A DNA stretch of 64,000 nt from Pseudonocardia sp. SCN 73-27 (GTDB taxonomy: Bacteria > Actinomycetota > Actinomycetes > Mycobacteriales > Pseudonocardiaceae), in assembly GCA_001725415.1 (NCBI GenBank), contig MEGH01000012.1:56841-120840 (forward strand), in the 5' to 3' direction. Below, piece by piece: positions 14,196 to 29,967 of the stretch. Each line of letters begins with the position of its first letter. Within the stretch, counting starts at the first letter, position 1. A program made the position numbers and the translations under genes. The notes under the pieces were generated by a model. It saw only the letters and a list, made by a program, of their open reading frames with translations. It did not search any database and had not been told where the DNA came from.

Positions 14196-14253
14196 CGCGC
14201 GACCGTAGCAACGCGCTGGGCTCGAGTGTTCGCGGGCAACGGGGCGACGGGGA

Positions 14254-14824: not shown

Positions 14825-15682
14825 TCAGACGGTTGCGGCGCCCTCCGCGGAGCGCAGCCGCGCCGCCTCGACCGTGTTCCACAACAGCATCGCGATGGTC
14901 ATGGGGCCGACCCCACCGGGGACGGGCGTGACGGCCCCGGCCACCCGCGCGACGGCCTCGGTGTCGACGTCCCCGCACAGCCCGGTGTCGGTCCGGTGGA
15001 TGCCGACGTCGATCACCGTGGCGCCCGGTGCGACCGCGTCGGCGCCGACGAGGTGCGGCACGCCGGCCGCGACGACGAGCACGTCGGCGGTCCGGGTGAT
15101 GGCGGCCAGGTCGGTGGTGTGTCGATGGCAGATCGACACGGTCGCGTCGCGTTCCAGCAGCAGTTGGGCCTGCGGCTTGCCCACGAGGTTCGACCGGCCC
15201 ACCACGACCGCGTGCTTCCCCCGGAGCTCGACGCCGGCGCTGTCGAGCATCCGGATCACGCCCGACGGCGTGCAGGGGCGCAGCCCGGGCTTGCCGAGCG
15301 CGAGGCGTCCCGCGCTGGCCTCGGTGAGGCCGTCGACGTCCTTGTCCGGGTCGATCAGGGCGAGCAGGTCGTCCGCCCGCAGGTGTCCCGGCAGTGGCAG
15401 CTGCAGGAGGATCCCGGTGACCGCCGGGTCCGCGTTCAGCTCCGTGATGATCGCGGCGAGCTCGGCCTGGCCGACGTCGGCCCGCAGGTGCCGGTGCAGG
15501 TCGCGCATGCCGACCTGCGTGCACAGCCGCCGCTTGTTGCGGACGTAGATCTCCGATGCCGGGTCGTCGCCGACCAGCAGCGTCGCGAGTCCGGGCGGCT
15601 CCTCCATCGATGCGACCTGCGCCGCGACCTCCTCGCGGAGCCGGGCTGCGAGCACCTTGCCGTCGATGACCGTCGCCGGCAT
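14825..15682 (-). CDS. folD: Bifunctional methylene-THF dehydrogenase/methenyl-THF cyclohydrolase
   Basis: Converts 5,10-methylene-THF to 10-formyl-THF with NADP+. The 285-residue protein has YVRNK (Y46, K50, the cyclohydrolase lysine), QLPLPGHL, PSGVIRML and the NADP loop VVVGRSNLVGKP. The length is typical. It ends the gene string that starts with the amidotransferase and lies 36 bp after purU. In this setting it would oxidise the C1 unit released by the N-methyl dehydrogenase. It may be a second, pathway-specific copy beside a housekeeping folD elsewhere. Confidence 0.93.
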   Translation of the reverse strand: MPATVIDGKVLAARLREEVAAQVASMEEPPGLATLLVGDDPASEIYVRNKRRLCTQVGMRDLHRHLRADVGQAELAAIITELNADPAVTGILLQLPLPGHLRADDLLALIDPDKDVDGLTEASAGRLALGKPGLRPCTPSGVIRMLDSAGVELRGKHAVVVGRSNLVGKPQAQLLLERDATVSICHRHTTDLAAITRTADVLVVAAGVPHLVGADAVAPGATVIDVGIHRTDTGLCGDVDTEAVARVAGAVTPVPGGVGPMTIAMLLWNTVEAARLRSAEGAATV

Positions 15683-15718
15683 CAGTACCTCCTGGAAAGA
15701 CGATTCGGTGAAGACGGA

Positions 15719-16651
15719 TCAGAAGACGATCGTGGTCCGGCCGTTGACCATGACGCGGTCCTCGCAGTGCCACTTCACCGCGCGGGCGAGCACGGTGCGC
15801 TCGATGTCGGCGCCGAGACGGACCAGGTCGGCGGCGCTGCTGCGATGGGTGACGCGGATGACGTCCTGCTCGATGATCGGACCCTCGTCGAGGTCCTCGG
15901 TGGCGTAGTGGGCGGTGGCGCCGATGAGCTTCACGCCGCGCTGCTTCGCCCGCTCGTACGGTCCCGCACCGGCGAACGCGGGCAGGAAGGAGTGGTGGAT
16001 GTTGATGACCGGCGCACCGATCCGGTCCAGCAGGTCACCGGAGAGGATCTGCATGTACCGGGCCATGACGACCAGGTCGACGCGACCCTTCAGCAGGTCG
16101 ATCTGGGCCTGCTCGGCCTGCGGCTTCGTGGCCTTGGTGACGGGGATGTGCTCGTAGGGCACGCCGAACCCGGCCACGGCATCGGCCAGGTCCGGATGGT
16201 TGGAGACCACCTGGACGATGTCGATCGGCAGGTCGCCGCGGCGCCAGCGCCACAACAGATCCAGCAGGCAGTGGTCGTAGCGGGAGACGAACAGCGCCAC
16301 GCGGGGCGCCACGTCGACGTCGCGCATCCGCCACGTCATGTCGAACCGGTCGCCGACCTCGGTGGCGAACTCGGCGGAGAACCGCGGCAGCCGCTCGGCG
16401 AGGTCGGGCAGGTGGAACACCAGGCGCTGGAAGAAGCGGCCACCGACCGGGTCGGTGGTCTCCTGGTCGTACTGCACGATGTTCGCTCCACGGGAGTGGA
16501 GGAACGCCGTGATGGCCGACACGATCCCGGGCCGGTCGACGCACGACGCGAGCAGTCGTCCGATGTTGGACGATGCCGGTGTTGCGGCGGCCGGACGGGG
16601 GACGGCGTCGGGCCGGGCTGTTCGCGCAGGGGTGACTGTCGTCTGTGTCAT
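15719..16651 (-). CDS. purU: Formyltetrahydrofolate deformylase
   Basis: Hydrolyses 10-formyl-THF to formate and THF. The 310-residue protein has a roughly 28-residue disordered, Ala/Pro-rich N-terminal extension, an ACT domain (about 30-110, GRLLASCVDRPGIVSAITAF) and the formyltransferase fold. Catalytic residues sit in INIHHSFLPAF and HYATEDLDEGPIIEQD. PurU is a regular companion of folate-dependent sarcosine-oxidase-type enzymes. It regenerates free THF and exports the carbon as formate, which fits methylotrophic or demethylating metabolism here. Confidence 0.93.
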   Translation of the reverse strand: MTQTTVTPARTARPDAVPRPAAATPASSNIGRLLASCVDRPGIVSAITAFLHSRGANIVQYDQETTDPVGGRFFQRLVFHLPDLAERLPRFSAEFATEVGDRFDMTWRMRDVDVAPRVALFVSRYDHCLLDLLWRWRRGDLPIDIVQVVSNHPDLADAVAGFGVPYEHIPVTKATKPQAEQAQIDLLKGRVDLVVMARYMQILSGDLLDRIGAPVINIHHSFLPAFAGAGPYERAKQRGVKLIGATAHYATEDLDEGPIIEQDVIRVTHRSSAADLVRLGADIERTVLARAVKWHCEDRVMVNGRTTIVF

Positions 16652-16715
16652 CGCGAGTGACCTGTGGCTTCCTCGTGCTCGGTCGCCGCGTTGCGACCGT
16701 GGCGTGGGCGATGGA

Positions 16716-16745
16716 GACCGGCCCCGACCGGGGTCGGGGCCGGTC
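16716..16745 (-). terminator. Strong GC hairpin after the gamma-subunit gene
   Basis: A perfect 14-bp inverted repeat (GACCGGCCCCGACC, two bases, GGTCGGGGCCGGTC) lies 5 nt beyond the gamma-subunit stop and about 65 nt before purU. There is no T-tract. It may terminate, or partly terminate and protect the 3' end, separating high expression of the oxidase subunits from lower expression of purU and folD. Confidence 0.55.
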
Positions 16746-16750
16746 GATCG

Positions 16751-17410
16751 TCAGATCGGGTCGGCGGCTGCCGCCCCGACCTCGATCCCGTACTCGATCC
16801 CTGCGTCGACCAGCGAGTCGGCCAGGTACTGGCCCGACGAGCGCTCGCAGTGCAGGAGGTAGGAGCGGGTTCGGGCAGCACCGTCGGCACGGTCGTCACG
16901 CACGACGTCGGTGACGACGCGCGCCACCGACGACCGGAACGCCGACCCGTTCGGTACGACGCGGTCGGTCAGGTCGATCGCGCAGACCTTCGACAGCAGC
17001 AGCGGTGCCGCCTCGCCCGTCAGCCGGACCAGGGCGCGGCCGTGGGTGACGTCGACGACGGAGGCGAACTCGCCGCTGTCGGCGACGATGGCGCCGACCC
17101 CCGCGAGCAGCTCGCCACCGGTGCCGGGGGCACCGAGGACCAGCCACTCACCGGGACCGGAGCCGACGACGAGCGCGCCGGCCAGCGGCCCGCCCCGGGG
17201 TCGGGCGGTGCGTCCGAACGACGTCCCGAGCGCGGTGCGCACGGACCCGTCGGCGGGGCCGCGGACGGTGAGCTTGACCAGCGGGCCGAGGTCGGTCAGC
17301 CGGAGCCCGCCCGTCGCGTGGCGGGCAGTGGTCTCCCAGCCGTCGACGGTGCGCAGCGGTCCCGGGAACGACAGGGCCGTGCGGGCGATCGGAGCGGCGA
17401 TGTCAGACAC
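16751..17410 (-). CDS. Sarcosine-oxidase-type gamma subunit (NMG dehydrogenase subunit MgdD-like)
   Basis: A 219-residue SoxG homologue with a GcvT-like fold. It has LSFPGPLRTVDGWETTA at the start, LVVGSGPGEWLVLGAPG near 95 and FASVVDVTHGRALVRLTG near 125. It is a structural subunit of the heterotetrameric flavoenzyme that oxidises N-methyl groups and transfers the C1 unit to THF. It overlaps the alpha gene by 8 bp. Order beta-delta-alpha-gamma is the same in sarcosine oxidase and in N-methylglutamate dehydrogenase operons. The upstream mgs/gmaS-like genes favour the latter. Confidence 0.85.
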   Translation of the reverse strand: MSDIAAPIARTALSFPGPLRTVDGWETTARHATGGLRLTDLGPLVKLTVRGPADGSVRTALGTSFGRTARPRGGPLAGALVVGSGPGEWLVLGAPGTGGELLAGVGAIVADSGEFASVVDVTHGRALVRLTGEAAPLLLSKVCAIDLTDRVVPNGSAFRSSVARVVTDVVRDDRADGAARTRSYLLHCERSSGQYLADSLVDAGIEYGIEVGAAAADPI

Positions 17411-20273
17411 GCTGACGTTCTCCCTCGGGATCGAAGTGGGCGTGCTCGGCGGTGACCTCGACCGTCGTGTCGCTGCCGTTGCGCAGCCGGACGGTGAGGC
17501 GGGTGCCGGGGTCGGCCAGGTGGGCGTCGACCTGCCCCAGGCAGATCGGGTGCCCCAGCGTCGGCGACAGCCGGCTGGAGGTGATCCGGCCGACGATGTA
17601 GCCGCCGTCGCTGATGATCTGGCTGGCCTCCTCGGGGATCACCGACGTGTCGAGCGGGCGGAGCCCGACGAGCATCGGGTACTCCCCACGCGCGGCCTGC
17701 CAGGCCAGCTCGGGCTTGCCGGCGAAGTCGGACTTGTCGAGCTTGACGACCCGGTCGAGCCCCGCGGAGTAGGCCTTGGTGAGGCCGTCGGTGTCCTGAC
17801 CGACGATGAAGTGGCCCTTCTCCAGCCGCAGGATGCGCTGCGCCTCGACCCCGAACGGGGCGATGCCCAGGTCGGCGCCCGTGGCCATCAGCGCCTCCCA
17901 CACGTGCAGCCCGTAGCTCGCCGGGACGTGCAGCTCGTAGGACAGCTCGCCGGTGAACCCGATGCGCCACAACACGCAGTTGTCGACGCCGGCGATCGTG
18001 CCGGTGCGGACGTTCATGTAGCCGAAGGCCGTGTTGTCGAGGTCGACGTCGGTCAGCCGGGCGAGCAGCTCGCGCGACTTCGGGCCCGCGACGTTGATGC
18101 TCGCGAACGCCGTCGTCACCGGCGTGATGTGGATCTGCCACTCGGGATGCTCGGTCTGCAGCCAGTTCTCGGCCCACTCCCATACCGTCCCGGCGCCCGA
18201 GGACGTCGTCGACATCAGGTAGTGGTTCTCGGCGAGCCGACCGGTGACGCCGTCGTCGAGCACGACGCCGTCCTCGGCGCACATGACGCCGTAGCGGACG
18301 CGCCCGATCCCGAGCTTCGACCACTTGTTGACGTAGAGCAGGTTGAGCAGCTTCGGGACGTCGGGGCCCTGCAGGTCGAGCTTGCCGATCGGCGTCACGT
18401 CGATGATGCCGACGCCTGCCCGGACGTTGCGGACCTCGGCCGCGGGGTCGCCGTAGTGTTCGGGGCGGATCCATTGGCCCGCGATCAGCGGGGTGGCCTT
18501 GTGCGCCTCGTGCCAGGGCTGCACGGGGGAGTGGCGGACCGGCTCGAACTTGCGGCCCGCCAGGGCTCCGAGCGTGATCGGCGTGTACATCGGGCGCCAC
18601 GTCGTCGCGCCGGTCTCGGCGATCGTCTTCCCCGTCGCATGGGCGACGAGCGCGACGGTGTTGACGGTCTCCAGCTTGCCCTGAGCGGGGCCCATGGTCG
18701 CCGTCGTGTAGCGCTTGACCAGCTCGGACGAGTCGTAGCCCTCCTTCACCGCGGTGAGGATGTCCTTGGCCGACACGTCCTCGGACATGTCGACGAACCC
18801 GCCCGTCGGCGTCGCGTAGAACAGCTCCGGGTGGTGGCGCAGCCCCAGCGCCGGGACCGGCTCGGCCGGGCGTGGGGTGGCGGCGGGCCCGTCGGGTCGG
18901 CCCGCGGCGTGGACCGCCGCGAGGGCCGACGCTCGTGCCGCCGCCTCGCGTCCCGCCGCCTCGGCATGGGCGACGAGCTCCTCGCGGGTCCCGTCGCCCG
19001 CGATGCCGCCGACCGCGATGACGCCGTCGGGCGTGGCCCCCGGGTCGGGGACGAACCGCGCCGCATCGGGCCGGTACACGGGGTTGGCACCGGACATGTT
19101 GAGCAGTGACGTCGGGGCCGTCCAGCCGATGGCGGTGACGAGCAGGTCGGCTTCGATGCGGCTGCCGTCGGACAGCTCGACGGCCTCGACGCCACCACGG
19201 CCGGTGGCGCGCACGACGGTCCGGCCGTGCCGGGCGTCGACCTCGACGACGTCGACCCCGGCCGCGCGGAGGTCGGCGGCCGCGGCGTCACCCTCGGGGT
19301 TGGCCGTGAACACGACGGCGCGCCGGCCCGGGCGCACCGCGTACAGGTTGAGCAGCCGGCGCACTGCCGTCGACAGCATGACGCCGGGCAGGTCGTTGCC
19401 CGCGAACACGTACGGGCGCTCGATGAGACCCGCCGCGACGACGAGCGTGCCCGCGCGCGCCTTGATCAGCCGCTCCGCGACGTGGGGGAGTCCACGTTGG
19501 ACGAGGGCCAGCCAGTTGTCGTCGTAGCGCGCGGCCACCACCGAGTCGGTGAGGACCTCGATGCCCGCCTCGGCCTCGACCGCGGCGACGAGCTCGTCGC
19601 GCAGCCGCAGGTCGTCGGCGTCGCCCCAGCGCAGGTGCCCGCCCAGCTGGTGTTCCTGCTCGACGAGCATGACGCGCGCGCCGGCGCGCGCCGCCGACAG
19701 CGCGGCGGCGAGCCCGGCCGGTCCACCGCCCGCGACGAGGACGTCGGGGTGGGCGTAGCGCTTGTCGAAGTAGGGCTGCTCGCTGTCCGGGGGTACCTCG
19801 CCCGCGTGGACGAACTGACGCAGCACCTTCTCGTACGTCGGCCACAGCCGTTCCGGCTTGATGAACGTCTTGTAGTAGAAGCCGGTCGCGAGGAAGCGGC
19901 CCGCGAGCTGGTTGACGGCCTTCACGTCGTAACGCAGCGACGGCCACGTGTTCTGCGACCGCACGTCCATGCCGGGCTCGACGAGCCGGTGCGCCGCACG
20001 GACGTTGGGCTCGTCGCCGACCTGCAGGATGGCGCCCGGGTCGAAGATGTCGGCGGTGAGCAGGCCGCGCGGGCGGTGGTACTTGTAGCTGCGCGCGAAC
20101 ATCCGGACACCGGCGGCGGCCAGCGCCGACGCGATGGTGTCGCCGGGGTGCGCGGTGTGGGTGACGCCGTTCCACCGGAACTCGATGGTCCGGCTGCGGT
20201 CGATGACCTCGCCGGGGCGGGCGCCGAGCCGGTGGTCGGCGGCGGCACGGCGGCGGGCTCCGGGGCGCGTCAC
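17403..20273 (-). CDS. Sarcosine-oxidase-type alpha subunit (NMG dehydrogenase subunit MgdC-like)
   Basis: A 956-residue protein. The N-terminus is a 2Fe-2S-fold domain without iron (HTAHPGDTIASALAAAGVR, about 30-50). A pyridine-nucleotide/FAD module follows with VLVAGGGPAGLAAALSAARA (about 165-184). The C-terminal half is a GcvT-type THF-binding domain (for example FGYMNVRTGTIAGVDN, GQVDAHLADPGTRLTVRLRN). It binds NAD and THF and channels the imine to methylene-THF. I start it at GTG 20273, which overlaps the delta stop (GTGA). A longer open frame continues upstream but is antisense-like. Confidence 0.9.
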   Translation of the reverse strand: MTRPGARRRAAADHRLGARPGEVIDRSRTIEFRWNGVTHTAHPGDTIASALAAAGVRMFARSYKYHRPRGLLTADIFDPGAILQVGDEPNVRAAHRLVEPGMDVRSQNTWPSLRYDVKAVNQLAGRFLATGFYYKTFIKPERLWPTYEKVLRQFVHAGEVPPDSEQPYFDKRYAHPDVLVAGGGPAGLAAALSAARAGARVMLVEQEHQLGGHLRWGDADDLRLRDELVAAVEAEAGIEVLTDSVVAARYDDNWLALVQRGLPHVAERLIKARAGTLVVAAGLIERPYVFAGNDLPGVMLSTAVRRLLNLYAVRPGRRAVVFTANPEGDAAAADLRAAGVDVVEVDARHGRTVVRATGRGGVEAVELSDGSRIEADLLVTAIGWTAPTSLLNMSGANPVYRPDAARFVPDPGATPDGVIAVGGIAGDGTREELVAHAEAAGREAAARASALAAVHAAGRPDGPAATPRPAEPVPALGLRHHPELFYATPTGGFVDMSEDVSAKDILTAVKEGYDSSELVKRYTTATMGPAQGKLETVNTVALVAHATGKTIAETGATTWRPMYTPITLGALAGRKFEPVRHSPVQPWHEAHKATPLIAGQWIRPEHYGDPAAEVRNVRAGVGIIDVTPIGKLDLQGPDVPKLLNLLYVNKWSKLGIGRVRYGVMCAEDGVVLDDGVTGRLAENHYLMSTTSSGAGTVWEWAENWLQTEHPEWQIHITPVTTAFASINVAGPKSRELLARLTDVDLDNTAFGYMNVRTGTIAGVDNCVLWRIGFTGELSYELHVPASYGLHVWEALMATGADLGIAPFGVEAQRILRLEKGHFIVGQDTDGLTKAYSAGLDRVVKLDKSDFAGKPELAWQAARGEYPMLVGLRPLDTSVIPEEASQIISDGGYIVGRITSSRLSPTLGHPICLGQVDAHLADPGTRLTVRLRNGSDTTVEVTAEHAHFDPEGERQRV

Positions 20274-20533
20274 GACGTCGCTCCTGCGGTGCCGGCGGCC
20301 GAGCGCTGGGCGTTGTCGACGGTGTTGCGCTCGATCCCGAAGTACCGGCGGCAGCCCGAGCCGTGGTACCAGGTCTCGGAGATCCAGCCGGCCGGGTTGC
20401 GGTGGAAGTACAGGTACCGGCGCCACTGTTCGGGGGTGGCCGTCTCCGGGTCGGGCCTGGACTTCGCCTCTCCGACGTAGCGGAACTCGCTCACGTTGCG
20501 AGCCCCGCAGTTCGGGCACGTCAGCAACATCAT
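20270..20533 (-). CDS. Sarcosine-oxidase-type delta subunit (NMG dehydrogenase subunit MgdB-like)
   Basis: An 87-residue zinc protein with LTCPNCGARNVSEFRYVGEA at the start and WYHGSGCRRYFGIERNTV further on, the standard SoxD pattern with three or four zinc ligands. The ATG at 20533 has GGAG 7 nt upstream. It is the small assembly subunit of the heterotetramer and is translationally coupled to the alpha gene. Confidence 0.92.
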   Translation of the reverse strand: MMLLTCPNCGARNVSEFRYVGEAKSRPDPETATPEQWRRYLYFHRNPAGWISETWYHGSGCRRYFGIERNTVDNAQRSAAGTAGATS

Positions 20534-20592
20534 GAAAGGTCTCCGGTGCGAGAGCGGTGCGGATGCGGAACGGGGAGGTCGGGTGCGGGCAG

Positions 20593-21891
20593 CTAGTGGC
20601 CGACGGCTGCCGCCCCCTTCTCTCCGACGAGGCGCCCCTCGTCGAACCGCTCGAGGCCGAACGCGGCGATGATCTCCGGCGGCTTGCCGTGCGCGATGCA
20701 CGCGGCCATCGCCTCGCCCGACACCGGCCCCGCCTTGAAGCCGTAGGTGCCCCAGCCGACGTCGACGAAGAAGCCCTCGACCGGCGTCAGGCCCATGATC
20801 GGCGAGTAGTCGGGCGTCATGTCGCACAGGCCGGCCCACTGGCGTAGCAGCCGCATCTTCGACAGCCCCGGCATCAGCTCGAGGACGTGCCCCGCGAGGC
20901 CCTCGACGAAGTCGAGCGACCCGCGCGTGGAGTAGGAGGCGAACGGGTCGACGCTCGCGCCGAACACCAGCTCACCGCGGTCGGTCTGGCTGACGTAGGT
21001 GTGCAGCGTGCCCGACACGACGACGGTGTCGAGGAACGGCTTCACCGGTTCGGTGACCGCCGCCTGCAGCGGGAACGTCTGCACCGGCATGTCGACGCCG
21101 ACCATGTCCGAGATCAGGGTCGACCACCCGGCGGTGCAGTTGACCACCACCGGTGCGCTGATCCGTCTGCCGTCGGCGGTGCGCACCCCGGTCACCCGGT
21201 TCGACGCGACGTCGATACCGACGACCTCGGTCTTCTGGTGGATGTGCACCCCGTGCGCGTCGGCCGACCGCGCATACCCCCACACCACCGCGTCGTGGCG
21301 GATGATGCCGCCCGGCGGGTGGTAGAGCGCGCCGAGGATCGGGTAGCGCGTCGACGACGACACGTCCATGTACGGGACGAGCTTCTTGATCTCGGCCGGG
21401 TCGATCACCGACGAGTCGACGCCCTGCAGCTTGTTGACCTCGGCCCGCCAGTGCATCGTGCGCAGCGAACTGTCGTTGTGCGCCAACGTCATGTGCCCGC
21501 GCTGGGAGAACATGACGTTGAAGTTCAGGTCGGCCGCGAGGTGCTCGTAGAGCTTCACCGAGCGGTCGTAGAACCGGACGCCCTCGGGTGTGAGGTAGTT
21601 CGACCGCAGGATCGCGGTGTTGCGTCCCGAACCGCCCGACCCGATGTAGGACTTCTCCAGAACCGCGATGTCGGTGATCCCGTGGTTCTCGGCGAGGTAG
21701 TGCGCGGTGGCCAGCCCGTGCACGCCGCCACCGATGATGATGACGTCGTAGGTCTCCTTCGGGGTGTGATGGCGGAACGCGCGCTCCCACCCCGACCCCG
21801 CCCCGAGCCCGTTCTTCACCAGGCTCCAGGCGGAGTATCGCGACGTGCGCCGGGCCCGTCCCGGGCCGTCGTGCTGTCCGTTGCGGCTCAT
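20593..21891 (-). CDS. Sarcosine-oxidase-type beta subunit (NMG dehydrogenase subunit MgdA-like)
   Basis: This 432-residue FAD subunit carries the amine-oxidising site. The Rossmann motif is DVIIIGGGVHGLATAHYLAE (about 49-68). GALYHPPGGIIRHDAVVWGYA (about 210) is typical of the family, and the C-terminus has GLCDMTPDYSPIMGLTPVEG and DVGWGTYGFKAGPVSGE. The first 30 or so residues are a basic extension not seen in shorter homologues. The sequence alone cannot separate sarcosine from N-methylglutamate as substrate. The gene neighbourhood points to N-methylglutamate. Confidence 0.9.
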   Translation of the reverse strand: MSRNGQHDGPGRARRTSRYSAWSLVKNGLGAGSGWERAFRHHTPKETYDVIIIGGGVHGLATAHYLAENHGITDIAVLEKSYIGSGGSGRNTAILRSNYLTPEGVRFYDRSVKLYEHLAADLNFNVMFSQRGHMTLAHNDSSLRTMHWRAEVNKLQGVDSSVIDPAEIKKLVPYMDVSSSTRYPILGALYHPPGGIIRHDAVVWGYARSADAHGVHIHQKTEVVGIDVASNRVTGVRTADGRRISAPVVVNCTAGWSTLISDMVGVDMPVQTFPLQAAVTEPVKPFLDTVVVSGTLHTYVSQTDRGELVFGASVDPFASYSTRGSLDFVEGLAGHVLELMPGLSKMRLLRQWAGLCDMTPDYSPIMGLTPVEGFFVDVGWGTYGFKAGPVSGEAMAACIAHGKPPEIIAAFGLERFDEGRLVGEKGAAAVGH

Positions 21892-21920
21892 TCCGGCTTT
21901 CTCTCCGAACTGGGTCAGGG

Positions 21921-23276
21921 TCAGAACTGGGTCAGGTAGCGGTCGATCTCCCACTGGGAGACCGTCGAGTGGTAGGCGTCGAACTCCGCGCGCTTGACGC
22001 CGGCGAAGTAGTCGATGAAGTCGCTGCCGTCGGGCAGCACCCCCAGCCCGCGGCGCAGCACCGAGTCCTCGACGAGCTCGTCGACGGCACGGTCGAGCGA
22101 GCGCGGCAGGTGCTGGATCCCGCGCGCGGCGACCTCGGCCGGGTCGAGCGAGAACAGGTTGTCGGTGGTCTGGTCGCCCGGGTCGAGTGCGCGGTCCACG
22201 CCGTCGAGACCGGCCGCCAGCAGCACCGCCGACGACAGGTACGGGTTGGCCGACCCGTCGACACCGCGGTGCTCGACGCGCCCACCCTCGGGCACGCGCA
22301 GCATCAGGCTGCGGTTGTTGCCGCCGTAGGCGACGTACGCCGGGGCCCAGGTGGCGCCCGAGTCCGGGGCGCCGACGCCGATGCGCTTGTAGGAGTTGAC
22401 GGTCGGGCAGATGACACCGGCGCTGGCCCGACCGTGGTCGAGCAGGCCCGCGATGAACTGGTAGGCCACCTTGGACAGGCCGAGCGTGTCGCCGTCGCCC
22501 TCGAACAGCGGCTCGTCGTCGGTGGTCCACAGGCTGAGGTGGGTGTGCAGGCCGTTGCCGGTGACGTTGCTGAACGGCTTGGGCATGAACGTCGCCGTCA
22601 TGCCGGCGTCGTGGGCGAGCATGTGGACCATGTACCGGAAGAAGATCGCCCGGTCGGCCGTGGTGACGGCGTCGGAGTAGTTGAAGTTGCTCTCGAACTG
22701 GCCGTTGCCGTCCTCGTGGTCGTTGGCGTAGTTGCCCCACCCGAGCTCGTTCATGTGCCTGGACAGCGTCGAGAGGAAGTCCCACATCCGGGTCAGGCCC
22801 TTGACCTCGTAACAGGGCTTGGCCGCGCGGTCGAGCGCGTCGGCGATCTCCAGGCCGCCGTCGGGGGTGCGGCGCAGCAGCGAGTACTCGGCCTCGATCC
22901 CGGTCTTGAGGACCCAGCCGCGCTCCTCGCGCATCTGCTCGAGCAGCCGCTTCAGGATGACGCGCGGGGCGTAGGGCCAGGGCTCGCCGTCGACCTGCGG
23001 ATCGCAGTGCAGCACAGCGACGCCCGGCTTCCACGGCACCCGGGTGTAGGACGCGGCGTCGGGGAGCACCGTGAGGTCGGGGTCGGCCGGGCCCTGGCCG
23101 ATGTCACCGGCGGCGAAGCCCGCGAAGCCCGCGCCGCCGTCCATCAGCATGTTCAGGCTCGACCGCGGTACCGCCTTCGCGCACGGCTTGCCGTGCATGT
23201 CGACGAACATCGCCAGGAAGAACTCGATGCCGTCCTCGTCCGCCCGTGCGGCCAGGTCGTCCCGTCCGTCACCCAT
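21921..23276 (-). CDS. Type III glutamine-synthetase homologue, probable gamma-glutamylmethylamide synthetase
   Basis: The 451-residue GlnT/GmaS-type ligase has GS signatures: LKTGIEAEYSLL with the metal glutamates, ANDHEDGNGQFESNFNYSDA (about 188-207), FMPKPFSNVTGNGLHTHLSL (about 233-252), and RVEHRGVDGSANPYL as the Arg/ATP site. In NMG operons this position is held by GmaS, which ligates methylamine to glutamate with ATP. Elsewhere the same family is annotated type III glutamate-ammonia ligase. It lies between the FMN synthase-like gene and the beta subunit, exactly as gmaS does between mgsC and mgdA. Confidence 0.85.
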   Translation of the reverse strand: MGDGRDDLAARADEDGIEFFLAMFVDMHGKPCAKAVPRSSLNMLMDGGAGFAGFAAGDIGQGPADPDLTVLPDAASYTRVPWKPGVAVLHCDPQVDGEPWPYAPRVILKRLLEQMREERGWVLKTGIEAEYSLLRRTPDGGLEIADALDRAAKPCYEVKGLTRMWDFLSTLSRHMNELGWGNYANDHEDGNGQFESNFNYSDAVTTADRAIFFRYMVHMLAHDAGMTATFMPKPFSNVTGNGLHTHLSLWTTDDEPLFEGDGDTLGLSKVAYQFIAGLLDHGRASAGVICPTVNSYKRIGVGAPDSGATWAPAYVAYGGNNRSLMLRVPEGGRVEHRGVDGSANPYLSSAVLLAAGLDGVDRALDPGDQTTDNLFSLDPAEVAARGIQHLPRSLDRAVDELVEDSVLRRGLGVLPDGSDFIDYFAGVKRAEFDAYHSTVSQWEIDRYLTQF

Positions 23277-23325
23277 GCCAACTCCTTCGTCGTAAGCGGC
23301 CAGTGCTGCAGAACGTGCTGTCGCG

Positions 23326-24648
23326 CTAGAAGTTCTGTCCGGGGATCCAGGACGTGCCGGCGAGGGGGACCCGGGCCATGGCCGCCGCCTCGATGGTCAG
23401 CGCCACCAGGTCCTCGGGCTCCAGGTTGCGCAGGTGCGCCTTGCCGCAGGCCCGGGCCAGCGTCTGCGCCTCGAGCGTGAGCACCCGCAGGTAGTTGGCG
23501 ACGCGGCGGCCGCCCTCGACCGGGTCGAGCCGCTTCGCCAGGTCGGGGTCCTGCGTGGTGATGCCGGCCGGGTCGCGCCCGTCCTGGTAGTCGTCGTAGA
23601 AGCCGGGCGCCGAGCCGATCTTCGCGTACTCGTCGGCGTAGCGGGGGTGGTTGTCGCCCAACGCGATCAGGGCAGCGGTGCCGATCGCGACCGCGTCGGC
23701 GCCCAGCGCCATCGCCTTCGCGACATCCGCGCCGGTGCGGATGCCCCCGGAGACGATCAGCTGCACCTTGCGGTGCAGGCCCAGCTCGGCCAGCGCCTGC
23801 ACGGCCTGGGGGATCGCGGCCAGCGTCGGGATGCCGACGTGCTCGATGAACACCTCCTGGGTGGCGGCGGTGCCGCCCTGCATCCCGTCGACGACCACGA
23901 CGTCGGCGCCCGCGGCGACCGCGAGCTTCACGTCGTAGTAGGTGCGGGTGGCGCCGACCTTGACGTAGATCGGCTTCTGCCAGTCGGTGATCTCGCGCAG
24001 CTCGAGGATCTTGATCGTCAGGTCGTCCGGGCCCGTCCAGTCGGGGTGCCGGCACGCGCTGCGCTGGTCGATCCCCGCGGGCAGGGTGCGCATCCCCGCG
24101 ACACGGTCGCTGATCTTCTGCCCCAGCAGCATGCCGCCGCCGCCGGGCTTGGCGCCCTGGCCCAGCACGATCTCGATCGCGTCGGCCGAGCGCAGGTCGT
24201 CGGGGTTCATCCCGTAGCGCGACGGCAGGTACTGGTAGACGAGGTTCTTGGACTGGCCGCGCTCCTCGGGCGTCATGCCGCCGTCGCCGGTGGTGGTCGA
24301 GGTGCCGACCTCGGTCGCGCCCCGGCCGAGCGCCTCCTTGGCCTGCGCGGACAGGGCGCCGAAGCTCATCCCGGCGATGGTGATCGGGATGTCGAGGTGC
24401 AGCGGGTTGCTCGCGTGCCGGTCACCGAGGACGACGTCGGTGTCGCAGCGCTCCCGGTAGCCCTCCAGCGGGTAGCGCGACATGCTCGCGCCGAGGAGCA
24501 GCAGGTCGTCGAAGTGCGGGACGGCGCGCTTGGCGCCCCAGCCGCGGATGTCGTAAACGCCGGTCTCGGCCGCGCGCTGGATGGACGCGATGGTGGCGCG
24601 GTCGAACGTGGCGGACTCGCGCAGCCCGGCCTGGGTGGGATCGATCAT
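23326..24648 (-). CDS. FMN-binding glutamate-synthase-like protein (MgsC/GlxD-like)
   Basis: The 440-residue protein matches the FMN/4Fe-4S central domain of glutamate synthase. Key pieces are DIPITIAGMSFGALSAQAKE (about 95), GQGAKPGGGGMLLGQKIS (about 170), VDGMQGGTAATQEVFIEHVG and VSGGIRTGADVAKAMALGAD. It would pass electrons to 2-oxoglutarate to make the N-methylglutamate backbone together with the two small proteins encoded upstream. Bacteria that split GltB into three genes in this way use them as MgsABC or GlxBCD rather than for ammonia assimilation. Confidence 0.88.
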   Translation of the reverse strand: MIDPTQAGLRESATFDRATIASIQRAAETGVYDIRGWGAKRAVPHFDDLLLLGASMSRYPLEGYRERCDTDVVLGDRHASNPLHLDIPITIAGMSFGALSAQAKEALGRGATEVGTSTTTGDGGMTPEERGQSKNLVYQYLPSRYGMNPDDLRSADAIEIVLGQGAKPGGGGMLLGQKISDRVAGMRTLPAGIDQRSACRHPDWTGPDDLTIKILELREITDWQKPIYVKVGATRTYYDVKLAVAAGADVVVVDGMQGGTAATQEVFIEHVGIPTLAAIPQAVQALAELGLHRKVQLIVSGGIRTGADVAKAMALGADAVAIGTAALIALGDNHPRYADEYAKIGSAPGFYDDYQDGRDPAGITTQDPDLAKRLDPVEGGRRVANYLRVLTLEAQTLARACGKAHLRNLEPEDLVALTIEAAAMARVPLAGTSWIPGQNF

Positions 24649-24678
24649 CGATGGCTCCCGGAAGTCGGTAGGCGCCGG

Positions 24679-25395
24679 TCAGTAGGCAGCGGAGTTGTGG
24701 GCGGCGAAGTGGTAGAGCTGCCGGGCGGAGCCGAAGCGGCGGAACTCCGACGCGTCGTGGGACATGCCCGCGCGGGCGAGCAGCTCGGTCAGCTCGGCGA
24801 CGTGCTCGTCGCGCATCTCCTTCTCCACGCAGTCCGCACCCAGCGACGCGACGCTGCCGCGGACGTAGAGCCGGGCCTCGTAGATCGAGTCGCCCAGCCC
24901 GTCGCCGGCGTCGCCGCACACGACGAGCCGGCCGGCCTGGGCCATGAACGCGCTCATCGGGCCGACGTCGCCGCCCACCACGATGTCGACGCCCTTCATC
25001 GAGATGCCGCAGCGCATGGACGCGCTGCCCTCGATGACCAGCAGGCCGCCGTGCGCGGTGGCCCCGGCGGACTGCGACGCGTCGCCCTTGACCCGCACCG
25101 AGCCCGACATCATGTTCTCGGCGACGCCGGTGCCGACGTTGCCGTGCACCACGATGTCGGCGTGCATGTTCATTCCGGCGCAGTAGTAGCCGGCGGGGCC
25201 GTGGATCTCGACGTCGACCGCGTCGTGCAGGCCGACGGCGATCGCCTCGGCGCCGCGCGGGTTGTGCACCTCGTAGCGCCGTGCCGTCGGGGCGTGCAGC
25301 TCGGCGTTGAGCTCGCGTACCGAGGTCGTGGTGAGATCGACCTTCACCAGTTCCTCCACCGCCTTCTCGGCGCCGACCTCGTTCAGCGCGACCAT
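24679..25395 (-). CDS. GXGXG-motif glutamate-synthase C-terminal-like protein (MgsB/GlxC-like)
   Basis: A 238-residue right-handed beta-helix corresponding to the C-terminal domain of glutamate synthase alpha. Repeats are visible as VDVEIHGPAGYYCAGMNMHA, DIVVHGNVGTGVAENMMSGS and DIVVGGDVGPMSAFMAQAGR. It has a structural role in the split synthase. Its ATG overlaps the amidotransferase 3' end by 13 bp, and the FMN protein gene follows after 30 bp. Confidence 0.88.
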   Translation of the reverse strand: MVALNEVGAEKAVEELVKVDLTTTSVRELNAELHAPTARRYEVHNPRGAEAIAVGLHDAVDVEIHGPAGYYCAGMNMHADIVVHGNVGTGVAENMMSGSVRVKGDASQSAGATAHGGLLVIEGSASMRCGISMKGVDIVVGGDVGPMSAFMAQAGRLVVCGDAGDGLGDSIYEARLYVRGSVASLGADCVEKEMRDEHVAELTELLARAGMSHDASEFRRFGSARQLYHFAAHNSAAY

Positions 25396-26063
25396 GCGTA
25401 GACCCTCTCCGGCTCGGGCTCGACGATCCGGGCGTCCGCGATCCCCGGCAGCTCCGCCAGGGCGTGGTACTCCGATGCCATCGCGACGTAGTCGGCCGTC
25501 TCGGCGATCACGGCAGGCTTGCAGGCGAACGAGTCGCGCAACACCGCGAACTGGGTCGCCGTCGTGACGAGCAGGGTGAAGAACCCGTCGAACTCCTTGA
25601 GGACCATCCGCATCGCGTCCTCGAGGTCGGCTCCGCCGGCGATCTCGCGGCCGATGAACCGGGCCGCGACCTCGGAGTCGTTGTCGGTGGTGCAGGTGAT
25701 CCCGTCGAAGGCCAGGTTCCGGCGCACCGACGCGTGGTTGGAGAACGACCCGTTGTGCACCAGCGCGAGATCGGGCACCGGGGTGAACGGGTGGGCGTGC
25801 TCGGGGGTGATCGCCGACTCGGTGGCCATCCGGGTGTGCCCGACGGCCTGGTAGCCGCTGCGCGAGGCGATGCCGTGCGCGGCGCAGATGTCACGGGGGA
25901 GCCCGACGTCCTTGACGACGTGCATGCCCTCGTCGTCGTAGAGCGCGAGACCGGCGCTGTCAGGGCCGCGCGAGGTCATCGCCTCGATCATCGGCACCAG
26001 GAGCCGTCCGAGCTCCGGCTGCAGCGCGGGGTTCTTCAGGTGCAGTCCGACAATGCCGCACAT
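25383..26063 (-). CDS. Class II glutamine amidotransferase (MgsA/GlxB-like)
   Basis: A 226-residue Ntn amidotransferase. The N-terminal catalytic Cys2 follows the initiator (MCGIVGLHL), and TSRGPDSAGLALY, VGHTRMAT and LVHNGSFSNHASVRRNL complete the glutamine site. In MgsA-type enzymes this domain is thought to act on gamma-glutamylmethylamide. It is first in the minus-strand pathway cluster. The ATG is preceded by a strong AAGGAGG and, further up, by the GntR operator. It is shorter than the roughly 300-residue proteobacterial versions as I remember them. Confidence 0.87.
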   Translation of the reverse strand: MCGIVGLHLKNPALQPELGRLLVPMIEAMTSRGPDSAGLALYDDEGMHVVKDVGLPRDICAAHGIASRSGYQAVGHTRMATESAITPEHAHPFTPVPDLALVHNGSFSNHASVRRNLAFDGITCTTDNDSEVAARFIGREIAGGADLEDAMRMVLKEFDGFFTLLVTTATQFAVLRDSFACKPAVIAETADYVAMASEYHALAELPGIADARIVEPEPERVYAWSR

Positions 26064-26141
26064 GAGCCACCGCCTCCTTCCGACGTGGGTGCCGGACCTC
26101 CGCCGACGACGTCGTCGTCGACGGCTGACCGGGAAAGGTTT

Positions 26142-26180
26142 TGGTGCAAGGTACAGACCTTGTACCTTTGTAGGGCACCA
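26142..26180. promoter_or_regulatory. GntR-type operator between the pathway operon and its regulator
   Basis: Core dyad AAGGTAC-N7-GTACCTT (26148-26168) is perfect, and the 7-nt centre AGACCTT itself echoes a half-site. An outer pair TGGTGC...GCACCA (26142-26147 and 26175-26180) encloses it. It lies about 80 bp before each divergent gene in an otherwise ordinary spacer. Dyads of this kind are typical FadR-subfamily sites, so the adjacent GntR protein is the obvious ligand. Confidence 0.65.
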
Positions 26181-26249
26181 CCCTCGGCCACCGATGTCAA
26201 GGGCGTCCGGCGAAGGCGCCGGCGGGGGTGCCGGGAAGGGGCGGTTACC

Positions 26250-26993
26250 GTGGAATCCATGTCGAACGGGGTCACCACGCAGACGTTGACGGAGGTCGTC
26301 GCCGACCACCTCCGGCGTCTGATCCATCTGGGCGAGGTGGGCCCCGGCGACCGGCTCCCGGCCGAGCGTGAGCTGGCCGAACAGCTGGGGATCGCGCGCC
26401 TGAGCCTGCGTGAGGCGCTCAAGACGCTGCAGAACGACGGGTACGTCGAGGTGCGCCGCGGCGCCCGGGGCGGCACCTATGTCACCGAGCTCGAGGCGCC
26501 CGTCGCCCGCTGGCGTGCGCGGATGCGCACCGTCTCCGGCGAGTTCGACGACATCATCGACTTCCGCATCGGCCTGGAGACCGAGACCGCGCGCCTCGCC
26601 GCCGCCCGGCGCACCCCCGAGGACCTCGCAGCCATGCGAACCACGATCGACGACCTCACCGTCGCCCACGACCGCACCGCCTTCCGGCTCGCCGACTCCC
26701 GGTTCCACGCCTCGCTGGCCCGTGCGGCCCGCAGCTCGCGGCTGTGCGCGGCCGTCGAGTCGACCCGCGCCGAGCTGTTCAACACCCACGACCTGCTCCC
26801 GTTCATCGACCCCGTGCAGGAGTCGGTCGACGACCACGAGGTCGTGTTCCGGGCCGTCGAGAAGGGGGACGTCGACGCCGCGGCGGCCGCGATGCGCGAC
26901 CACATCGAGCACACGCGCACGCAACTGCGGGCCATCGTGTTCGCGACGGACCCGCCCTCGCCGGATGCCCCCGGGGCCACCACCGTCAGCTGA
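26250..26993 (+). CDS. GntR/FadR-family transcriptional regulator
   Basis: The 247-residue protein has an N-terminal winged HTH (GDRLPAERELAEQLGIARLS and LREALKTLQNDGYVEVRRG, about 35-80). A helical FCD ligand domain follows (about 95-230) with the metal-site residues typical of FadR/VanR proteins (RIGLETETARLAA, ADSRFHASLARAA and HEVVFRAVEKGDVDAAAAAM). It is divergent from the mgs/gmaS/mgd-like operon over a clear dyad, so it is the probable pathway repressor. I chose GTG 26250 because AAGGG precedes it; ATG 26259 is the alternative. Confidence 0.88.
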   Translation: MESMSNGVTTQTLTEVVADHLRRLIHLGEVGPGDRLPAERELAEQLGIARLSLREALKTLQNDGYVEVRRGARGGTYVTELEAPVARWRARMRTVSGEFDDIIDFRIGLETETARLAAARRTPEDLAAMRTTIDDLTVAHDRTAFRLADSRFHASLARAARSSRLCAAVESTRAELFNTHDLLPFIDPVQESVDDHEVVFRAVEKGDVDAAAAAMRDHIEHTRTQLRAIVFATDPPSPDAPGATTVS

Positions 26994-27729
26994 TCAGGTC
27001 CGACAACAGCTTCGCCGCCTCCATCGTCGCCCCGATCTGCTCGGTCATCACCGACGCCCGTGCCGCCGGCCCGGCCAGGCACAACGCGCCCACGACGTCG
27101 CCGCCACGGCTGCGGATCGGCGTGGCGCAGCAGGCGATCCCGTCGATCAGCTCGCCCCGCTGATGCGCGGTGTCGGTGCGGCGCACCTCCGCGAGCTCCG
27201 CGTCGAGGACGTCCGGGTCGATGATCGTGTGCTCGGTGAGCTGCCGCAGGTGCGGCAGCGCCTGACGCCAGTCGGGCAGGTGCGCGAGCAGCAGCTTCCC
27301 GGCTGCCGAGGCGTGCGGATGACGCAGCAGGTCGTGCTCGGAGTGCAGCGGCCGGTCGGGGTCCTGGTCGCCCACCCGCACGGTGTCGCCGAGGTAGATG
27401 ATCAGGTGCACCCCGAACCGGATGCGACCCCGCAGCTCCTCCAGCACGTCGCGGGCCGCCGACGGCACGAACGGCGCCACCGCCGCCGTCACGATCTCGT
27501 CCATCTTGCGGCCGATGGCGAAGCCGCGCAGGTCGTCGACGCGGACCAGGAACTCGCTGGCGGTCAACGTGTTCAGCAGCCGGTAGCAGGTCGCGGGCGG
27601 CATGCCGACGAACGCCGCGAGCTCCTTCGCCGTCACGCCCGTGCCCAGGCGCGCGACGGCCTCGATGAGCCGCATCGCCCCGTCGATCGGCGCGGGCGGC
27701 CTGCCGCGCCCCAGCGGTCCCGACGTCAC
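26986..27729 (-). CDS. IclR-family transcriptional regulator
   Basis: A 247-residue regulator with winged HTH VTAKELAAFVGMPPATCYRL (about 32-51) and an effector domain with HLIIYLGDTVRVG, ASAAGKLLLAHLPD and a C-terminal VGALCLAGPAAR. IclR proteins sense small carboxylates or aromatics. Its GTG overlaps the permease stop (GTGA), so it is co-expressed with that transporter and probably controls it. Its 3' end overlaps the convergent GntR gene by 8 bp. Confidence 0.88.
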   Translation of the reverse strand: MTSGPLGRGRPPAPIDGAMRLIEAVARLGTGVTAKELAAFVGMPPATCYRLLNTLTASEFLVRVDDLRGFAIGRKMDEIVTAAVAPFVPSAARDVLEELRGRIRFGVHLIIYLGDTVRVGDQDPDRPLHSEHDLLRHPHASAAGKLLLAHLPDWRQALPHLRQLTEHTIIDPDVLDAELAEVRRTDTAHQRGELIDGIACCATPIRSRGGDVVGALCLAGPAARASVMTEQIGATMEAAKLLSDLIS

Positions 27730-29186
27730 CGGAAGATCCCCCGTTGCGCGCCCCGGGAGACGTCGGAGGCGATCGTCTCGTCGTAGACGCCGACGGCCTC
27801 CAGTCGTGCGGGCGCGCGTCTTCGGAAGACCAGGGCGAGACAGCTGCTGCCGAACAGCACGGCCAGGAACACCGACACGAGCACCGGCTGCTCGCTGAAC
27901 GTCTGCACGATCGCGAGCGCGATGATCACCGTCAGCAGCAGGGCCGCGGTGACCGAGACGATCCAGGTGGCCCGGGTGGCCTCGCCGATGCGGCGCAGGA
28001 ACAGCGGCGTCGCCACGCAGACCACGACGTAGGTGCCCAGGTAGCCGAGCGCGGACAGGGTGAGCAGGTCGGCCAGTGCGTGCTGCTGGGCTCCGGCCAG
28101 GATCAGGATGCAGGGCGTCGCGACGACCGGCGGGAGCACGACAGCCAGGGCTCGCGACGGGGTCCGGTAGCGGGGGTGGGTGTGGCCCAGCCCGCGCGGC
28201 ACCACACCCTCGCGCCCCATGCAGAACAGCACCCTGACCAGCGCATTCAGCGACGCGAGCGCGCAGCTGAACCACGACGCCGCGATGGCCAGGTCGAGCA
28301 CGATCGACATGACCATCGGCTCGTGCAGCGAGACGAGGTCGGTCACCGGGGTGACCTCGTGGCTGATGCTCGGCGACGGCATCGCGACCGACTGCACGAG
28401 GCTGGAGAACACGTACAGCACACCGGCGGCAGGGACCGTCCAACGGACGGCGCGCGGCACCGACTCCAGCGGCTTGGCCGCCTCGACGCTCAGGGTCGTC
28501 GCGCTCTCGAAGCCGATGAACGCGCTGATCGCGATGACGATGCCGACCGCGAGCGGGCGGATGTCGGGCTTCCACGCCAGCACCGCGGACAGGTCGGCGG
28601 TGGGCAGCACGAGGACGAACAGGACGATCAGCACGACGAGCACCAGCAGGATCGACACCGACTCGACGAGCAGGGTGACCCGCGCCGACAGCCGGATGCC
28701 CGCGACGAGGATGACTCCCACCGCGACCCCGGCGACGAGCACGACCCCGGCGGCCAGTGGGGGACCGATCGACGGTGGTGCGCCCAGCCGCTGGGCCAGG
28801 TCGGCGAGGTAGAGGCCGACGGCGAGCAGTCCCGCCATGGCGACGACGGAGTAGCCGAGCAGTGCCGACCAGCCGGTCACCAGTGCGCCGCCGGGGTGCA
28901 GTGCCCGTGCGCTGTAGCTGTAGAGCCCGCCCGGTGCGCGCATCCGGCACGCGAACTGCTGGATGCACCAGCTGACGAGCATGCAGACGACCGTCGTGCA
29001 CACGAATGCGAGCAGCGCGCCCGGTCCCGTCGCCCCCAGCACGATCGCCGGGATGATCGCCGCCGCCCCGCTGGGGGCGACCGCCGCGACCGACTGCGCG
29101 AGCACGGGCAGCGGCCCGAGACGGCGTCGGTCGAGCCCCGTCACCGACGACCGTGCGGGCAGCTCGGGGCGAGCGACACCGTGCAT
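27726..29186 (-). CDS. APC-family amino acid/amine permease
   Basis: A 486-residue transporter with about 12 helices. The consensus APC start SVAAVAPSGAAAIIPAIVLG is in helix 1, CRMRAPGGLYSYSARALHPG lies between helices 2 and 3, and FIGFESATTLSVEAAKPLES is in helix 6, where substrates are gripped. It is cotranscribed with the IclR gene. Next to a putative methylamine/N-methyl amino acid pathway it may import such an amine, but specificity cannot be read. ATG 29186 is preferred over longer upstream starts, which lack membrane-protein character. Confidence 0.85.
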   Translation of the reverse strand: MHGVARPELPARSSVTGLDRRRLGPLPVLAQSVAAVAPSGAAAIIPAIVLGATGPGALLAFVCTTVVCMLVSWCIQQFACRMRAPGGLYSYSARALHPGGALVTGWSALLGYSVVAMAGLLAVGLYLADLAQRLGAPPSIGPPLAAGVVLVAGVAVGVILVAGIRLSARVTLLVESVSILLVLVVLIVLFVLVLPTADLSAVLAWKPDIRPLAVGIVIAISAFIGFESATTLSVEAAKPLESVPRAVRWTVPAAGVLYVFSSLVQSVAMPSPSISHEVTPVTDLVSLHEPMVMSIVLDLAIAASWFSCALASLNALVRVLFCMGREGVVPRGLGHTHPRYRTPSRALAVVLPPVVATPCILILAGAQQHALADLLTLSALGYLGTYVVVCVATPLFLRRIGEATRATWIVSVTAALLLTVIIALAIVQTFSEQPVLVSVFLAVLFGSSCLALVFRRRAPARLEAVGVYDETIASDVSRGAQRGIFR

Positions 29187-29667
29187 CCGCACCTGCCTTC
29201 CTGCCGACCTGTCCCGGCACGAGCGGAGCGAGCGTACTTCCCGGAACGGCCCGCGGCACATTACAGACATGTTTCGTGGGGTGGGAAAAGATGCGCAGAC
29301 AATTCTCGGAGGGGATTTGCGTCACAGGGTTGGCAGCGGGGAGCCCGGTCTCTACTGTCGAGGCACGCCGAGCGCCGTCGTTCCCAATTCACGGCTGCCG
29401 GCCATGTCGACCCGGATCTGTACGGGAAACGGCCGGGTCACGCCATTCCTTCATCGTCGAGGGGAGACGTCCATGAGTCGTGAAACGTGTTTCCTCCATT
29501 CAATGGACTCGTCGTAGCGGGTGCGGACGCGTCCGTCACCAGCACAGAACCGCCGTTCCTGCAGCGTGGACCAGGCCGCGAAGCCTCCACGCGCGCCGCG
29601 CGGCGGACTCGACGAGCAGTGTTCGAATTCGACGCACGAACACCGCGCCCATCCCCACGGAGTCGCC
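29187..29667. promoter_or_regulatory. Divergent intergenic region with two adjacent dyads
   Basis: These 481 bp between two permease operons hold no gene I can support. The notable part is GAAAC-GT-GTTTC (29482-29493) followed directly by TCCATT-C-AATGGA (29495-29507), both perfect. A looser TTTC-N9-GAAA lies near 29271-29287. The AT content is locally raised. IclR sites often have this GGAAA/TTTCC character, so the neighbouring IclR protein may bind here and control the plus-strand permease operon. Confidence 0.5.
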
Positions 29668-29967
29668 GTGCCCGCATCCCTCGATTCACGTATGGCCGCG
29701 TTGGCGCGCCGGGACCGAATTCTCGCGATCACCTTCACATTGCTGATGTGGGTGGTCCTGGTCTTCGTGTTCTTCGCCGCCACCTCGGTTGCACCTACGC
29801 CCGCGATCACGGTCGTACTCGCCGTGGCCACGCTGTTGCTCGGCCTGTTCAACACCGCCTCGCTGCTCGCGCTGCTCAAGCGCTACGCCGCCAACCGCGA
29901 CCTGATCTACCGGCCCGACGTCATGCACCTCGACCAGCTCCGCGCCGCGCGCGGGAAGCAGGACTGA
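29668..29967 (+). CDS. Small two-helix membrane protein, first gene of permease operon
   Basis: A 99-residue protein: short amphipathic N-terminus (MAALARRDR), two transmembrane helices (ILAITFTLLMWVVLVFVFFA and TVVLAVATLLLGLFNTASLL), then a basic cytoplasmic tail (RYAANRDLIYRPDVMHLDQL). GTG 29668 has GGAG at 6 nt. No family recognised. It starts a tightly packed operon in which all following genes are close or overlap, so it is probably an accessory subunit of the permease encoded three genes later. Confidence 0.7.
   Translation: MPASLDSRMAALARRDRILAITFTLLMWVVLVFVFFAATSVAPTPAITVVLAVATLLLGLFNTASLLALLKRYAANRDLIYRPDVMHLDQLRAARGKQD

Follow-up and report, generated by a model that had tools for sequence, protein, structure and literature searches.

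Does a gene cluster of Pseudonocardia sp. SCN 73-27 that looks complete for methylamine use through N-methylglutamate (NMG) belong to that pathway, and where did its parts come from? The cluster lies in the window, the 64,000-nucleotide stretch of DNA analyzed here (contig C12 of a 6.95-Mb host genome in 99 contigs). Ten consecutive minus-strand genes, mgsABC, gmaS, soxBDAG, purU and folD, and a divergent gene for a GntR/FCD regulator occupy positions 14825-26993 (Table 1). A sequence-only reading had proposed these genes as an NMG pathway with its own outlet for one-carbon (C1) units; their presence, order and strand were all confirmed, and our family assignments agree with it. The nearest named GmaS relatives, among the best 80 of 564, were from Pseudonocardia sulfidoxydans NBRC 16205 (94% identical) and P. 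dioxanivorans CB1190 (91%). Because both species (L038 and L039) carry the ten genes and gntR in identical order, chance or misassembly is an unlikely source of the arrangement. On the strength of the gene content, the active-site residues of GmaS and the co-occurrence of genes within the genus, we consider it quite probable that the operon serves methylamine use via the NMG route.

We infer every reaction of this route, with its direction and substrate, and the inducer of the operon, from sequence. GmaS would use methylamine, glutamate and ATP to make gamma-glutamylmethylamide, from which MgsABC would pass the methylamino group to 2-oxoglutarate with reduction, yielding N-methylglutamate and glutamate. 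The SoxBDAG-type complex would then convert N-methylglutamate to glutamate, handing the methyl carbon to tetrahydrofolate (THF) as methylene-THF. FolD would take methylene-THF to formyl-THF, and PurU would split formyl-THF into formate and free THF; the two operon-encoded proteins fit such a carbon flow. The GntR/FCD protein would control the operon at the palindrome at 26148-26168.

The glutamine synthetase (GS) homologue scored 588.9 bits against NCBIfam model TIGR03105 (cut-off 469.6). By name this family is a type III glutamate--ammonia ligase, a label that the solved GmaS 7cql also bears. The closest solved structures were RhGmaS itself (7cql, E 2.6e-119) and 9qur, a glutamate-methylamine ligase (1.5e-117), with 7tdp, an ammonia GS, next at 6.1e-67. 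We numbered sites as in RhGmaS (PMC7948447, in the portion available, which also places Q175 in the methylamine pocket), and in the alignment the window GmaS keeps 15 of the 17 sites checked. K30, A48, Y147, D177, E179, E186, N188, W300 and R312 are kept in all 38 non-outgroup sequences, the window included. The ammonia GS 7tdp differs at K30, A48, Y147, D177, N188 and W300, having Asp at position 48 and no residue at W300. The protein thus appears to be of GmaS type, with residues of the methylamine site and without the ammonia-GS signature. The check that the sequence-only reading had suggested, a GS tree, came out in its favor: tree and residues alike place the homologue with GmaS, apart from the outgroup, which was a single ammonia GS on a long branch.

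Scanning a genome collection with GmaS, we took the best 80 of the 564 relatives as loci and sorted them into type A (L038-L079, 42 loci, GmaS 60-94% identical to the window's, one 55%) and type B (L080-L117, 38 loci, 52-56%). In the GmaS tree the window clade falls inside type A (support 83), and type B stands apart (support 99, starred). Type A stretches contained soxB, soxD and soxA in 22 of 42 cases, 20 of these with mgsA, mgsB and mgsC as well; soxBDA was found in 0 of the 38 type B stretches, some of which end at contig edges. Since the loci were found through GmaS, this set says nothing on the frequency of soxBDAG in the absence of gmaS.

Alongside gmaS, the window encodes a three-subunit NMG synthase, MgsABC, with its subunits in order, and a four-subunit, folate-linked dehydrogenase. 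The alpha subunit of the latter, SoxA, has a Fer2_4-like N-terminus, a Rossmann domain and a C-terminal GcvT folate domain. SoxD contains CPNC and HGSGC motifs, which we take to be a zinc site, and the gamma subunit had no Pfam match. All four subunits match NCBIfam models, yet each falls short of its curated cut-off (853.5 against 1164 for alpha, 525.6 against 529.45 for beta, 93 against 116.5 for delta, 56.2 against 143.95 for gamma), so we regard them as divergent members of their families.

The SoxB and SoxA trees, which did not include the genetically tested Methyloversatilis and Methylocella sequences, gave three lineages. The first holds the heterotetrameric sarcosine oxidase TSOX (beta subunit only), sarcosine-context sequences, one Thalassospira sequence and NMG-linked sequences from R. 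etli, Aminobacter and Thioclava; Paraburkholderia, Acinetobacter, Pseudomonas and Pseudosulfitobacter sequences make up the second, among them two that are NMG-linked; the third, which contains the window, is actinobacterial apart from one Chloroflexi bin. One group of all NMG-linked sequences was rejected (p 5e-7 for SoxB, 6e-52 for SoxA), and NMG-linked SoxA sequences did not form one clade (approximately unbiased (AU) test, p 0.0065, from a quick tree with long-branch warnings). The trees gave no orthology between the window dehydrogenase and the proteobacterial NMG dehydrogenase, and a branch with 100/100 support separates it from TSOX, a comparison anchored in the PDB for beta only and otherwise in sarcosine-context plasmid sequences. 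The expectation that the four subunits would fall with MgdABCD was not fulfilled in these trees. The sequence-only reading had looked to such trees to choose between NMG dehydrogenases and sarcosine oxidases; the alpha and beta subunits are neither of the alphaproteobacterial NMG-linked type nor of the sarcosine type, and form a third lineage. Judged by these trees, the window dehydrogenase is a member of an actinobacterial SoxBDAG lineage, not of the alphaproteobacterial Mgd lineage. Naming by orthology is unsafe, because three enzyme lineages sit in NMG clusters among the sequences compared, and a soxBDAG set adjoining gmaS cannot be called an NMG dehydrogenase on that ground.

Co-occurrence within the genus ties this dehydrogenase to gmaS. 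Among 36 Pseudonocardia genomes, SoxA was present in 10/10 with type A gmaS versus 1/26 without it (Fisher 4e-8), and in 8 of the 10 it lay within a few kilobases of gmaS. It was absent from all five genomes with only a type B GS (55-57% identical). The lone exception, G006, is 72% complete and has part of a paralogous cluster. The genome of the window itself has one SoxB and, besides the one GS of gmaS type, three other GS homologues (all at E <= 1e-10). We prefer N-methylglutamate as the substrate here since SoxA tracks type A gmaS within the genus and the genome has this single SoxB.

The paralogous cluster is a third kind of cluster, found in other Pseudonocardia at L223 (G014), L224 (G010), L225 (G012), L226 (G018), L227 (G020) and, in part, L230 (G006). 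It carries a GS homologue 30-31% identical to the window's, a distant mgsABC and a divergent soxBDAG. The two GS sequences checked keep the GmaS catalytic residues, Q175 included, and have Val at position 48. L223 and L227 have a further SoxB-like oxidoreductase with purU, L223 also with folD, and in the two loci checked for it, L223 and L225, a permease scored above the NCBIfam cut-off for trimethylamine N-oxide (TMAO) permease. As a speculation, the substrate of this cluster could be a different methylated amine, for example dimethylamine; we found no literature using the term gamma-glutamyldimethylamide, which is not proof that it is absent from print. The genome of the window had no second mgsC of this kind at E <= 1e-60.

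Several observations weigh against methylamine use by the NMG route as the role of the operon. In a sample of 396 genomes from the phylum, SoxA (E <= 1e-150) occurred in 22, the window's own included. We took 20 of the 24 other SoxA places, 15 of which had a close SoxBDAG (L164-L178, stretches of 7.8-20 kb from 14 genomes in other families of the phylum). None of these 15 stretches has type A gmaS beside soxBDAG, and a single one carries a GS-mgs set, of a distant paralogous kind. A GS at E <= 1e-90 was found anywhere in the genome in 6 of 21 SoxA-bearing genomes, and in 4 of the 17 with a close SoxA (69, 65, 59 and 54% identical). Two stand-alone SoxBDAG loci scanned with NCBIfam have weakly betaine-like neighbors, one a homocysteine/betaine-methyltransferase-like gene below its cut-off together with an Fhs over its cut-off, the other a glycine-betaine-monooxygenase-like gene, again below cut-off. 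Even within the genus, the only SoxA of G012 and G020 (2 of the 10 co-occurring genomes) lies in the paralogous cluster, outside this operon. As purU also follows soxBDAG in sarcosine-context clusters, purU and folD do not settle the substrate of the dehydrogenase. The window GmaS itself has Ala at Q175 and Phe at W189. As for a supply of methylamine, no HODM-type demethylase was found in the genome at E <= 0.001 and the best match to TMAO demethylase reached 235.5 of 1100 bits; other methylamine sources were not searched. The expectation that the window SoxBDAG lineage would sit with gmaS was not borne out in the phylum sample. Because the lineage mostly stands without gmaS in that sample, and NMG-linked SoxA is not one clade, membership of the lineage is not in itself diagnostic of N-methylglutamate, and we infer the NMG step of this dehydrogenase for the same reason instead of reading it from the family.

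Some of these points speak for an alternative that we nonetheless consider unlikely, namely that SoxBDAG, PurU and FolD form a sarcosine oxidase of the betaine pathway that shares an operon with GmaS-Mgs, the two halves having different substrates or SoxBDAG serving both. The 15 same-lineage stretches without type A gmaS, the betaine-type neighbors, the divided NMG-linked SoxA sequences and the placement of purU all speak for it, as does the difficulty, described in the available part of PMC3160333, of telling sarcosine oxidase from NMG dehydrogenase in the two sox operons of SAR11. Against it, the genes scanned from 13146 to 34772 included no glyA, serine lyase, dimethylglycine dehydrogenase or betaine gene, the window subunits stand apart from TSOX and from sarcosine-context sequences in the trees, and SoxA tracks type A gmaS within the genus. 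A pathway for another primary amine, such as ethylamine or a larger alkylamine, could be aided by a residue smaller than the Q175 of RhGmaS; this residue is Ala in 30/31 and Thr in 1/31 actinobacterial-type sequences of both cluster types, a set that includes one Chloroflexi bin. Methylene-THF can form only from a methyl group, and the GcvT folate domain, FolD and PurU of the operon suggest a methyl carbon, so we give this alternative a small chance. Least credible of all is that the GS homologue is GlnT, a type III GS that ligates ammonia, in a cluster for nitrogen assimilation: the NCBIfam name would suit it, though 7cql is named likewise, and it was rejected on the active-site residues, which are of the GmaS kind and lack the one typical of ammonia GS at position 48; the genome also has its three other GS homologues. 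Methylamine use by the NMG route thus stays the favored account. The sequence-only reading was thus supported in part: gene content, GmaS residues and genus co-occurrence bear it out, but the alpha and beta subunits form a third lineage whose close members in the phylum sample lack type A gmaS beside them.

We compared the synthase genes with both cluster types, and they did not agree with one another. Window MgsC is 84-93% identical to type B sequences (Frankia L101, 70%) and 66-71% to type A sequences outside its own clade (L071, 77%; Actinomycetospora L051, 89%). MgsB is 62-77% identical to type B (L101, 52%) and 40-51% to type A (Actinomycetospora, 69-70%). GmaS shows the reverse split, 52-56% to type B and 60-84% to type A, and MgsA leans the same way with overlapping ranges (45-61% to type B; 71-75% to most Pseudonocardiaceae type A sequences, one 55%). 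In trees of 42 sequences, where 12 of the 14 other type A members have soxBDAG in the stretch, joining the window clade to other type A sequences was rejected for MgsC (AU p 5e-5) and MgsB (AU p 5e-9). MgsA placed the window clade with type A (support 86, not starred), and its grouping with type B was rejected (AU p 2e-4). These AU p-values are not blind, because the groups were chosen after the identities had been seen, which counts against them; the contrast between neighboring genes is the stronger point. The operon seems to be a mosaic in which mgsB and mgsC come from another cluster lineage than mgsA and gmaS. Intermediates were seen in Actinomycetospora (L051) and in two Pseudonocardia genomes (L228, L229), each with a gmaS-soxBDAG of type A and, alongside but separate from it, a type-B-like mgsABC.

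Window MgsA is also shorter by a segment of some 70 residues that, in 25 aligned sequences, is absent from 9, present in 12, and beyond judgment in 4 that start too late. All nine without it belong to the Pseudonocardia group and include two identical pairs; the 12 with it include P. nigra and six plasmid sequences. The window protein, whose probable start is the ATG TGC at 26063 within a longer listed open reading frame (ORF), contains MCG, GHTR, HNG and DND motifs, which presumably have a catalytic role.

Neither the NMG pathway nor its purU/folD companions are new, and proteobacterial plasmids carry the same set. Aminobacter aminovorans pAA01 (L121) has the same eight genes in the order mgsABC-gmaS-soxBDAG/mgdABCD, as in the window, but its dehydrogenase is in another clade (SoxB 44% and SoxA 36% identical) and its fetched stretch has no purU or folD annotated, with glyA and phosphoenolpyruvate carboxylase instead. 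R. etli pRetIE4803a (L120, glxBCD-glnT-purU with soxBDAG) and Thioclava p3 (L122) share all NMG genes and purU with the window; unlike it, both have a GlxA-family regulator in the cluster and no folD annotated in the fetched stretches, and in R. etli the sox genes are divergent. Paraburkholderia phymatum pBPHY01 (L129), the top-ranked record of the plasmid collection for window SoxB (55.8%), and Acinetobacter p8E072658 (L137) have the ten functions, purU and folD included, but in a different gene order and with a dehydrogenase in a separate clade. L137 was read from its annotation; L129 is unannotated and was read by tblastn, which did not detect soxG there. TSOX (1vrq, 2gag) shares the subunit architecture and is strongly similar to window SoxBDAG; it differs in its separate clade (PDB anchor for beta only) and in that the scanned neighbors in the window include no glycine or serine genes.

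Among actinobacteria, type B gmaS-mgsABC clusters without soxBDAG (Rhodococcus L096, Streptomyces L090, the Ca. Mycobacterium methanotrophicum plasmid L118) reach 93% identity to the window in MgsC and 77% in MgsB but differ in GmaS (52-56%). In place of SoxBDAG, 20 of the 38 type B loci, and L118, have in the stretch a flavoprotein 24-32% identical to SoxB, in L118 at 13302-14492 directly after mgsC; it is a candidate one-subunit N-methylglutamate oxidase. The NMG pathway was proposed in 2015 for methylotrophic Mycobacterium isolates (PMC5023230), so that, with the proteobacterial companions above, the sequence-only reading had overstated the novelty of the locus. Those isolates, like the window, have a gma and mgsABC cluster and mgdA-D homologues; in the available text of PMC5023230 the mgd clusters are mentioned separately and an operon with purU and folD is not described. 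The partial texts at hand also treat NMG phylogeny in proteobacteria (PMC5023228) and report the glutamate route in three Binatota genomes (PMC8262859). We found no literature on the NMG pathway, methylamine with glutamate, or methylglutamate in Pseudonocardia, nor on Ca. Mycobacterium methanotrophicum with methylamine, which is not proof of absence from print.

The C1 outlet is dedicated but not unique, since the genome has two more purU-like regions, one folD-like region and an Fhs; purU and/or folD also accompany NMG clusters of proteobacteria. On Acinetobacter plasmid L131, purU-folD-soxBDAG stands beside genes annotated as trigonelline monooxygenase, and on Aquabacterium plasmid L123, gmaS-mgsABC stands beside flavin reductase and LLM-class oxidoreductase genes. 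These neighborhoods suggest trigonelline as a source of methylamine for the NMG route; we found no literature joining the two, which again does not prove that none is in print.

The palindrome between gntR and mgsA did not occur in any of 100 shuffles of the window. Of 18 sequences, the window and 17 loci, 13 have a shorter form, AGGT-N11-ACCT, upstream of gntR; 2000 mononucleotide shuffles, a control that leaves relatedness aside, gave a mean of 0.05 and at most 1. The next two arm bases also pair in 5 of the 13, as AC/GT in the window and L039 and as CC/GG in L042, L048 and L053. The palindrome is likely the operator of GntR. The exact sequence occurs once in the genome, with one place at 2 mismatches; a genome-wide GntR regulon was rejected, as a search at <=3 mismatches gave 31 places versus 66 for the reversed control. 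GntR is probably a local regulator, and its divergent position is kept in relatives such as L038, L039 and L041.

Upstream, the APC-family permease of Table 1 is a candidate amine or amino-acid transporter. Farther on, at 29521-32724 on the plus strand, lie an ethanolamine-permease-like APC transporter (199.7 of 381.75 bits) and small ORFs, three of which were scanned with no family match.

Table 1. Genes and sites of the putative NMG operon and its upstream neighbors in the window.
Feature	Position	Strand	Remarks
folD, methylene-THF dehydrogenase / methenyl-THF cyclohydrolase	14825..15682	-	family match
purU, formyl-THF deformylase	15719..16651	-	378.3 and 361.9 bits, both cut-offs passed
soxG/mgdD-like gamma subunit	16751..17410	-	GTG start; NCBIfam match
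soxA/mgdC-like alpha subunit	17403..20273	-	GTG start; family match, domains, trees
soxD/mgdB-like delta subunit	20270..20533	-	CPNC and HGSGC motifs
soxB/mgdA-like beta subunit, flavoprotein	20593..21891	-	family match, trees
gmaS, gamma-glutamylmethylamide synthetase-type GS homologue	21921..23276	-	TIGR03105, solved relatives, residues, tree
mgsC, FMN glutamate-synthase-like subunit	23326..24648	-	in tree with the soxBDAG-less cluster type
mgsB, GXGXG subunit	24679..25395	-	in tree with the soxBDAG-less cluster type
mgsA, class II glutamine amidotransferase-like subunit	25383..26063	-	226 aa, compact form
Palindrome AAGGTAC-N7-GTACCTT, 21 bp, probable operator	26148..26168		between gntR and mgsA
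gntR, GntR/FCD regulator	26259..26993	+	divergent from mgsA
IclR-family regulator	26986..27729	-	upstream; adjoins the cluster in P. sulfidoxydans (L038) too
APC-family permease	27726..29270	-	upstream; kept in P. sulfidoxydans (L038)

As a history of the locus, we tentatively propose, at somewhat short of an even chance, that the actinobacterial NMG pathway was assembled separately from the alphaproteobacterial one. Actinobacterial SoxBDAG enzymes whose ancestral substrate was a different one would have supplied its dehydrogenase on more than one occasion. In one Pseudonocardia lineage, subunits from a different cluster type would have replaced two of the three in the NMG synthase, making it a natural chimera there. 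The pathway is ordinary in kind, well preserved and unusual in its history, and its interest lies in the mosaic and the non-orthologous dehydrogenase, not in rarity. Methylamine use through N-methylglutamate would be extended to Pseudonocardia with clear markers, and the chimeric synthase would be a natural experiment on which surfaces of MgsA, MgsB and MgsC must match.

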